51,445 nt of DNA from Candidatus Tayloriibacteriota bacterium (GTDB lineage Bacteria > Patescibacteriota > Minisyncoccia > Phycocordibacterales > CAIRYW01), in contig JAQBQZ010000007.1 of assembly GCA_028286725.1 (NCBI GenBank), positions 135,262 through 186,706 on the forward strand. Reading direction: 5' to 3'. Below are positions 26,786 through 28,387 of the stretch, piece after piece. The notes under the pieces are model-generated. The model had not been told where the DNA came from and made no database searches. It saw only the letters and a list, made by a program, of their open reading frames with translations. A program made the translations under genes and the position numbers. The stretch's first letter is position 1; each line of letters opens with the position of its first letter.

Positions 26786-26818
26786 AAATGCACCGCACCC
26801 AAAGGGTGCGGTGCATTT
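26786..26818 (+). terminator. Terminator after trpS
   Basis: Perfect 15-bp stem AAATGCACCGCACCC with loop AAA; only three T after the stem. The aspS leader promoter begins at its edge. Confidence 0.75.
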
Positions 26819-26845
26819 GCATTTAAATCTAAGTTATTACATAAT
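26817..26845 (+). promoter_or_regulatory. aspS T-box promoter
   Basis: TTGCAT (26817-26822), 17-nt spacer, CATAAT (26840-26845); predicted start about 26852, three bases before the first leader stem. Confidence 0.6.
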
Positions 26846-26851
26846 AAACCT

Positions 26852-26971
26852 TATCCAGTGACCCGATTGACGACCGGCGAGGAAAAACGTAGTAAAAGAT
26901 ACAAAGCAGGGTGGCACCGCGGAAATCCGCCCCTGAAAATTCATTTATGTGGATTTTTAGGGGCGGTTTTT
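26852..26971 (+). promoter_or_regulatory. Compact T-box riboswitch controlling aspS
   Basis: Seen: a first hairpin at 26855-26882 (CC, AGTGA, CCG, loop ATTGACGAC, CGG, CGA, GG) with two GAC aspartate triplets in the loop. Then a 24-nt linker and an antiterminator made of CAGGG (26907-26911), the 7-nt T-box bulge TGGCACC (26912-26918), GCGG-AAAT-CCGC and CCCTG (to 26935). The terminator CCGCCCCT (26927-26934) with AGGGGCGG (26959-26966) and T5 is mutually exclusive with the antiterminator. UGGC pairs with GCCA, the 3' end expected for uncharged tRNA-Asp. Known T-boxes raise transcription when uncharged tRNA accumulates. The whole leader is about 120 nt; a classical long Stem I and Stem III are absent. 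Confidence 0.88.
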
Positions 26972-26995
26972 CAATTATTATTATCTATATAGAAT

Positions 26996-28387
26996 ATGAG
27001 AACTTATATAAAGGATTTGGAATTAAAAAAAGGAGAAGAGGTTATAATTAAGGGTTGGATCGATATTCGTAGAGATCAAGGGAAGCTTATTTTCTTTGAT
27101 TTCCGAGACATGTCAGGCAAGGTGCAGGGTGTAGTACTTCCAGGCTCTGTGGCAAAGGAAACAGCAGAAAAAACTCGCCCAGAATGGGTGGTTGAAGTTA
27201 AGGGTAAGGTAAATGAGCGTCCAGAAAAGAACAGACAGGCAGACAAGCAGAATGGAAACATTGAACTTGAGATCCTTGAGATCACAGTTTTGAACGAAGC
27301 AGAAACACTCCCATTTGATATTGGTACTGATACGCGAGAAGTTGGTGAGGAAGTACGAATGAAATATCGCTATGTGGATCTTCGAAGTCAAAGAATGCAA
27401 AGAAATCTTAGAATGAGAAGTGAAGTATTTTCACTAATGAGAAACTATTTTAGAGATAGTAATTTTACAGAAGTCGAAACTCCGATTCTTACTAAATCAA
27501 CTCCAGAGGGAGCACGTGATTATCTTGTGCCATCAAGACTTGAAAAAGGCTATTTTTATGCGCTCCCACAGTCCCCTCAGCAATACAAACAACTCTTGAT
27601 GACATCAGGAATTGAGAAATATTTTCAATTTCCAAAATGTATGAGAGACGAAGATACAAGAGGCGATAGACAGCCAGAATTTACACAGCTTGACGTTGAG
27701 ATCAGTTTTGCAACCGAAGAAGAGGTTATGAATGTTACTGAAAATCTTTTGATTAAGATCGTGACAACTCTCTATCCAGAAAAGAAAATTCAACAAATTC
27801 CGTTTCCAAAAATCCCATATGCAGAAGCAATGTCTAAATATGGTGTCGATAGACCAGATCTCCGAGAAAATAAAGAGGATCCAAACCTTTTGGCATTTTG
27901 TTGGGTGATCGATTGGCCAATGTTCGAAAAAACAGATAAGGGCGGTTGGACATTTTCACACAACCCATTTTCTGGATGTAAGAAAGGTTCAGAAGCTGAT
28001 CTTGTAAATAAGTCTAATATTGAAAATATTATGGCAGCTCAATACGATATTGTACTCAATGGTTATGAGATCGGAGGTGGAAGTATTCGAAATCATCGCC
28101 CTGAAATGCTCAAAAAAGTATTTGAGATCTTGGGCTACAGCGAAGAAGATATCAATAGTAAATTTGGACACATGCTTAAAGCTTTTACTCTCGGAACTCC
28201 TCCTCATGGCGGTATTGCATGGGGAATGGATCGACTTATGATGCTTCTTCACAACGAAGCAAGTATTCGAGAAGTGATTGCATTCCCAAAGACAGGAGAA
28301 GGTAAGGACTTTATGATGGATGCACCGAGTACCGTTTCTGCTGAACAGTTAATTGAGCTTGGAATTACGGTAACCAAAAAGGCATAA
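26996..28387 (+). CDS. aspS: Aspartyl-tRNA synthetase lacking the GAD domain
   Basis: Class IIb synthetase, 463 aa against about 590 for bacterial enzymes. N-terminal OB fold (VIIKGWIDIRRDQGKLIFFDFRD), flipping loop (SPQQYKQLLMTSG), motif 2 (FRDEDTRGDRQPEFTQLD-like), and motif 3 (GIAWGMDRLMMLL) are present. The sequence runs from RPDLRENKEDPN straight to LLAFCWVIDWPMFE, where bacterial enzymes carry the roughly 120-140 residue GAD insert. Whether it charges only tRNA-Asp or also tRNA-Asn cannot be told here. Controlled by the T-box at 26852. Its stop overlaps the next start by one base. Confidence 0.95.
   Translation: MRTYIKDLELKKGEEVIIKGWIDIRRDQGKLIFFDFRDMSGKVQGVVLPGSVAKETAEKTRPEWVVEVKGKVNERPEKNRQADKQNGNIELEILEITVLNEAETLPFDIGTDTREVGEEVRMKYRYVDLRSQRMQRNLRMRSEVFSLMRNYFRDSNFTEVETPILTKSTPEGARDYLVPSRLEKGYFYALPQSPQQYKQLLMTSGIEKYFQFPKCMRDEDTRGDRQPEFTQLDVEISFATEEEVMNVTENLLIKIVTTLYPEKKIQQIPFPKIPYAEAMSKYGVDRPDLRENKEDPNLLAFCWVIDWPMFEKTDKGGWTFSHNPFSGCKKGSEADLVNKSNIENIMAAQYDIVLNGYEIGGGSIRNHRPEMLKKVFEILGYSEEDINSKFGHMLKAFTLGTPPHGGIAWGMDRLMMLLHNEASIREVIAFPKTGEGKDFMMDAPSTVSAEQLIELGITVTKKA

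Follow-up and report, generated by a model that had tools for sequence, protein, structure and literature searches.

The leader of aspS in the window, as we call the whole 51,445-nt stretch of DNA analysed here, belongs to the T-boxes as judged by its core, specifier, discriminator pairing and kink-turn. It is likely (we put the probability somewhat below 0.8) that it acts as a T-box that attenuates transcription in response to tRNA-Asp and has been cut to the anticodon and acceptor-end contacts. On comparison with other T-boxes, its most unusual feature is the lack of both Stem II and the IIA/B element together with an ultrashort Stem I. The window comes from a 0.9-Mb genome in 14 contigs, in which this leader is the only T-box candidate of note; named organisms related to it belong to Patescibacteria/Paceibacterota. 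Four elements lie on the plus strand in the gap of about 215 nt between trpS and aspS: a promoter-like site, a hairpin of 28 nt, a T-box antiterminator and a terminator that overlaps it. The aspS gene (26996-28387, plus strand) encodes a bacterial-type aspartyl-tRNA synthetase (AspRS) of 463 aa that is matched above cut-off by PRK00476 (626 bits) and TIGR00459 (573 bits). The protein matches the family models, which are about 590 aa long, in two separate stretches, and its central insertion domain seems to be missing. The sigma-70-type promoter-like site (26817-26845) consists of TTGCAT (26817-26822), a 17-nt spacer and CATAAT (26840-26845), and was entered by the promoter scan as TTTGCA with an 18-nt spacer; it matches 9 of 12 positions, and chance matches are common (6 found versus 3.7 expected). 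A TATACT-like box lies just 5' of Stem I in many relatives. A GC-rich 15-bp hairpin located 3' of trpS (26786-26818) extends into the -35 region of the aspS promoter and was scored as a minus-strand terminator.

The antiterminator (26907-26935) comprises helix A1 (CAGGG 26907-26911 with CCCUG 26931-26935), a 7-nt bulge UGGCACC (26912-26918) that matches the T-box consensus UGGNACC exactly, and helix A2 (GCGG 26919-26922 with CCGC 26927-26930). An intrinsic terminator (26927-26971) is formed by an 18-bp stem (26927-26966) and a T run (TTTTT) that ends about 25 nt 5' of the aspS start codon. The terminator overlaps the 3' strands of A1 and A2, and because positions 26927-26935 are common to both structures, antiterminator and terminator are mutually exclusive. 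The minimum fold of the full transcript is the terminator (-40.2 kcal/mol, versus -28.2 kcal/mol with the antiterminator enforced), and the antiterminator is present in the minimum-energy fold of a transcript stopped 12 nt past it. The initial annotation had proposed a T-box on aspS with an expression platform of the transcription-attenuation type, and the exact antiterminator, the competing, overlapping terminator and the best Rfam match all bear this out. Comparison with the Rfam T-box model, which it had suggested as a check, agreed in part: RF00230 is the best match to the leader (E 2e-4), but at 27.1 bits it falls far below the gathering score of 93, and the alignment is poor, with a real fit at the core only. 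At the gathering score, Rfam returns nothing in the window and no T-box in 20 related loci either. Since these loci are likewise missed, absence from Rfam is no evidence against a T-box.

The ultrashort Stem I (28 nt, 26855-26882), recognised from the sequence, a kink-turn scan and covariation in 32 leaders, reads 5' to 3' CC / AGU / GA / C / CCG / AUUGACGAC / CGG / C / GA / GG. Its base consists of a C-helix (CC/GG) and a 3-nt bulge (AGU, 26857-26859), followed by a tandem G-A/A-G (26860-26861 with 26879-26880) with an adjoining C-C mismatch; an NC-helix (CCG/CGG, 26863-26865 with 26875-26877) then carries a 9-nt loop (26866-26874). The arrangement CC-AGU-GA...GA-GG, together with the consensus across relatives, predicts a kink-turn at the base of Stem I. 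Alignment with relatives places the specifier GAC, an Asp codon, at 26869-26871 in the terminal loop, where it is complementary to the GUC anticodon of the genome's tRNA-Asp; a second GAC follows directly (26872-26874). Folded on its own, Stem I has little stability (-1.4 kcal/mol), and a different pairing is favoured by the nearest-neighbour model. Given this thermodynamic weakness, its reality rests on comparison with relatives. Only 3 kink-turn hairpins with GAC in the loop occur in the 51-kb window, both strands summed, so one lying within 30 nt of a T-box core is not expected by chance. A chance hairpin is ruled out by this low density and by the leader shuffles described below.

A linker of 24-25 nt (26883-26906) takes the place of Stem II and IIA/B, as read from its motifs and from comparison with relatives. 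It contains an RRRxG motif (AAACG, 26885-26889), the conserved A26904-A26905 near its 3' end and a possible Stem III of only 3 bp (26889-26891 with 26900-26902), so that a very short Stem III with flanking RRRxG...AA is probably present at 26885-26905. A motif scan detected no S-turn motif in the 24-nt linker, and between promoter and core there is no structure beyond the 28-nt Stem I and no long, elbow-binding Stem I. The description of the hairpin as the sole upstream structure holds as far as Stem II and IIA/B are concerned, but it has to be amended for the tiny Stem III and its RRRxG...AA flanks that are probably present. Measured from Stem I through the antiterminator, and without the terminator, the window RNA comes to about 81 nt, the smallest among the leaders collected.

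What follows on the start of transcription, the binding of tRNA, the response to its charging and antitermination is inferred. RNA polymerase would start just 5' of 26855, and the first 28 nt would fold into the kink-turned hairpin, offering its GAC loop to the GUC anticodon of tRNA-Asp. The purine-rich linker of 24 nt, with a Stem III of at most 3 bp, would join this hairpin to the antiterminator, in which the UGGC bulge would pair with the GCCA end of the same tRNA-Asp when uncharged. This pairing would hold the antiterminator and let transcription proceed into aspS, while charged tRNA would be unable to pair at the bulge and the more stable terminator would form. Among the features counted against an attenuating T-box are the marginal stability of Stem I alone, and a G-C pair where an aminoacyl-sensing G-U wobble is expected. 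A G-U wobble at the base of A2 is held to sense 3'-aminoacylation, and the pair that replaces it in the window leader is G26919-C26930. As in the window, this position is C in 37 of 46 asx leaders; it is U in all serS leaders.

Leader loci were gathered from AspRS homologues in the genome collection and from an order-wide search for the core RGGTGGNACCGCG, which was positive in 129 of 397 genomes. The proteins encoded 3' of the collected leaders cluster as AspRS (bacterial and archaeal type), ThrRS, SerRS and IleRS, and regulation by tRNA is the presumed function of the leaders in this set. The kink-turn scan (C-helix, 3-nt bulge, GA, optional mismatch, helix, loop of 5-9 nt, GA, C-helix) detected a hairpin in 45 of 57 asx, serS and ileS leaders (thrS excluded), versus a mean of 4.5 and a maximum of 10 in dinucleotide shuffles, a control to which the same selection was applied. 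The codon of the leader's own gene stands in the terminal loop in 42 of these 45 hairpins, as GAC (20) or AAC (12) for AspRS, AGC for SerRS (7 of 7) and AUC for IleRS (3). Only one of these cognate-codon loops also holds the triplet of another class, and mononucleotide shuffles gave cognate triplets in 0.75 of 71 leaders. Among 49 hairpins, the base 5' of the loop triplet is U in 39 and the base 3' of it is A in 41. Stem I helix positions are paired in 186 of 192 cases (32 leaders), versus 134 on average and 151 at most with the 3' arms permuted among leaders, and as many as five pair types occur at a single position; these figures are biased toward structure by the partial choice of hairpins on pairing. 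For these counts the arms were anchored on the GA dinucleotides, as MAFFT alignment sets the 3' arm of Stem I wrongly where loops differ in length. All 71 leaders have an A at position -5 before the core and 67 have one at -4, in agreement with the published RRRxG-Stem III-AA motif.

Sequence comparison shows that the elements exist, that they covary and that specifier and discriminator base agree with gene and tRNA. An Asp specifier in a terminal loop and a Stem I kink-turn had both been claimed for the window in the initial annotation, which named conservation of the short hairpin in related genomes and agreement of the GAC loop with gene identity among the points to check; the hairpin proved conserved and covarying among relatives, its loop triplet follows the downstream gene, and these claims stand. 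The Asp specificity that it pointed to is not where the novelty lies, as the order holds a large population of such leaders with several specificities.

The survey also yielded leaders of other form. In thrS leaders (L032, L043, L047, L112, L115 and others) Stem I differs, with ACC in the terminal loop (e.g., CUACCAA), a 3-nt 5' bulge without the tandem GA and, at times, an outer AGAUU/AAUCU helix around it; these stems are missed by the kink-turn scan. Loci L033, L049 and L051 have cores and terminators after a common GGGUUGGGC... leader, and the gene downstream of L033 encodes a carboxylate-amine ligase or glutamate-cysteine ligase-like protein and no synthetase. Elsewhere in the phylum, L188 consists of a short hairpin with a GUGGCUC loop containing GGC (Gly) and then a UGGA core, followed by an ORF that by eye resembles glycyl-tRNA synthetase. 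L027 has a core and terminator ahead of an AspRS-like gene, and about 40 nt upstream, where Stem I would be expected, there ends an ORF that by eye is GIY-YIG-like; this locus is possibly a broken T-box or an insertion.

The variable base of the UGGN bulge is C in 43 of 46 AspRS and 7 of 7 SerRS leaders, A in 14 of 14 ThrRS leaders and U in 4 of 4 IleRS leaders. In the window's genome, tRNA-Asp(GUC), tRNA-Asn(GUU) and tRNA-Ser carry G73, tRNA-Thr(GGU) carries U73 and tRNA-Ile(GAU) carries A73. Taken gene class by gene class, bulge and discriminator base match in all but 3 of 71 leaders, the tRNAs being read in the window's genome alone and assumed alike for the others; the exceptions (L110, L119 and L133) are AspRS leaders with UGGU instead of UGGC. 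For the window, the C of UGGC matches G73 of tRNA-Asp read in the genome, as predicted at the outset. No asparaginyl-tRNA synthetase (AsnRS) above the curated cut-off was detected in 34 genomes tested, and GatB was present in 6 of 6 genomes tested, so that both Asp and Asn triplets on AspRS genes make sense. Gene content thus suggests that AspRS probably charges both tRNA-Asp and tRNA-Asn, in which case either would be a sensible signal. AAC on aspS as a mismatch was ruled out by the absence of AsnRS above cut-off and the presence of GatB.

By motif scan, 23 of 32 AspRS leaders carry a Stem II, marked by the S-turn motif AGUAGA, after Stem I and ahead of the core; one of the 23 (L105) is a loose match that was discounted and counted as Stem II-less. 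The 18 Stem II-less leaders comprise 11 on AspRS genes (the window, L061, L062, L077, L078, L082, L086, L088, L101, L105 and L107) and 7 on SerRS genes, and the cognate codon is kept in 10 of the 11 aspS leaders by scan, in L062 by eye, and in 7 of 7 serS leaders. A maximum-likelihood AspRS tree (33 rows) requires 6 changes of the Stem II trait, and its well-supported branches force at least 5 of these; a change may be a loss or a regain, and T-boxes may also move between genes. With at least 5 changes, the absence of Stem II is no single decay event or assembly fault. An assembly deletion of Stem II is also unlikely because L077, L078 and L101, from other families, have linkers just as short (23-32 nt). 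A phylum-wide search for a GAGG-linker-core pattern was positive in 16 of 380 genomes, mostly by chance or in leaders with longer structures, and the Stem II-less form appears to be found mainly in this order. We somewhat favour the view that T-boxes of Patescibacteria have repeatedly been reduced to two short contacts (specifier-anticodon and UGGN-3' end) and a short linker, without either clamp (the elbow-gripping long Stem I, or Stem II), while sensing charging.

Published structural work calls Stem II and IIA/B essential for a short Stem I, and deletion of IIA/B removes most tRNA binding in a short-Stem-I T-box. These deletions lend weight to the idea that the window leader is a vestigial T-box, with Stem II lost and tRNA no longer usefully bound, that serves as a fixed-strength attenuator of aspS, as do the loss of Stem II and IIA/B, the minimal Stem III, the weak Stem I and the cores of relatives L027, L056 and L104, in which the scan found no Stem I. 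We consider this unlikely, as the kink-turn, specifier, UGGC and AA flank of the window leader are all intact, Stem II-less leaders of several families keep the cognate codon (11 aspS, 7 serS), and a fixed 18-bp terminator ahead of an essential gene would be costly. It has also been argued that Stem II is dispensable where the codon is GC-rich (GGC in glycine T-boxes). GAC and AGC, found in most Stem II-less leaders, form two G-C pairs each with the anticodon and fit this argument in part; AAC (L061, L062) forms one and does not fit it. A working T-box in which a helper replaces Stem II would be consistent with the strong conservation of the kink-turn among leaders, and L7Ae/YbxF-type proteins, which bind kink-turns, can stabilise those of T-boxes in Bacillus (PMC7583486); such a helper is a candidate to which we give still less credence. 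Leader-peptide attenuation, with translation of a short ORF sensing aspartate supply, is very improbable, as the 44-codon GTG ORF across the leader (26858-26992) has no Asp codon, the GAC triplets lie in another frame and a complete T-box core is present.

The preferred reading, a working T-box of minimal size, can be set against known systems. The canonical RF00230 T-box (e.g., Bacillus tyrS) shares with the window leader the antiterminator sequence, competing terminator, kink-turn, C-ending specifier codon and RRRxG...AA flanks, but has a long Stem I, an internal specifier loop and an elbow-binding double T-loop, none of which the window leader has. A long Stem I with double T-loop is usual in T-boxes and not universal, varying within the family. 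Actinobacterial ileS T-boxes with an ultrashort Stem I (Mycobacterium, Nocardia) share the short, kink-turned Stem I and the UGGN-bulge discriminator, and like the window leader do without the elbow-binding end of a long Stem I. Sherwood and colleagues reportedly placed their specifier in the terminal loop in 2015. These ileS T-boxes keep the Stem II S-turn and IIA/B, whereas the window leader has neither, and they control translation, whereas the leader on aspS has a transcription terminator and no Shine-Dalgarno sequestrator platform. The glyQS type, like the window leader, lacks Stem II and IIA/B and has a flexible linker to the discriminator, but combines a GGC codon with a long, elbow-gripping Stem I, in contrast to 28 nt here. 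Patescibacterial leaders with Stem II (L007, L016, L046, L073 and others) have the Stem I, core and terminator of the window leader and sit on genes of the same kind, but keep the AGUAGA S-turn stem and mostly a IIA/B-like element.

A 2008 survey recorded T-boxes in Firmicutes, Actinobacteria, Chloroflexi, Deinococcus/Thermus and a few Proteobacteria (PMC2494555). TBDB dropped sequences below 100 nt and ran its short-Stem-I model on Actinobacteria and truncated class I model hits (PMC7778990), and with this length filter and model scope it may have missed such leaders. No report linking T-boxes to Patescibacteria, Parcubacteria or the Candidate Phyla Radiation was found in open full text, a search that did not extend to subscription literature or TBDB, so any priority for T-boxes in Patescibacteria would be provisional. 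What appears to be new is that both tRNA clamps are missing in a transcription-attenuating T-box, which, if true, would contradict the view that one of the two is required.

The window leader would be the smallest natural RNA known to us that reads both the identity and the charging of a tRNA, and would make the contacts truly needed by a T-box directly testable. T-boxes, mainly known from Firmicutes and Actinobacteria, would be extended to a large uncultured phylum that the Rfam model has missed. In genomes with no recognisable AsnRS, the switch between Asp and Asn specifiers on AspRS genes suggests that a dual AspRS allows either of its product tRNAs to be monitored. Leaders with Stem II, without it and nearly without Stem III would form a natural series for RNA reduction beside genome reduction.
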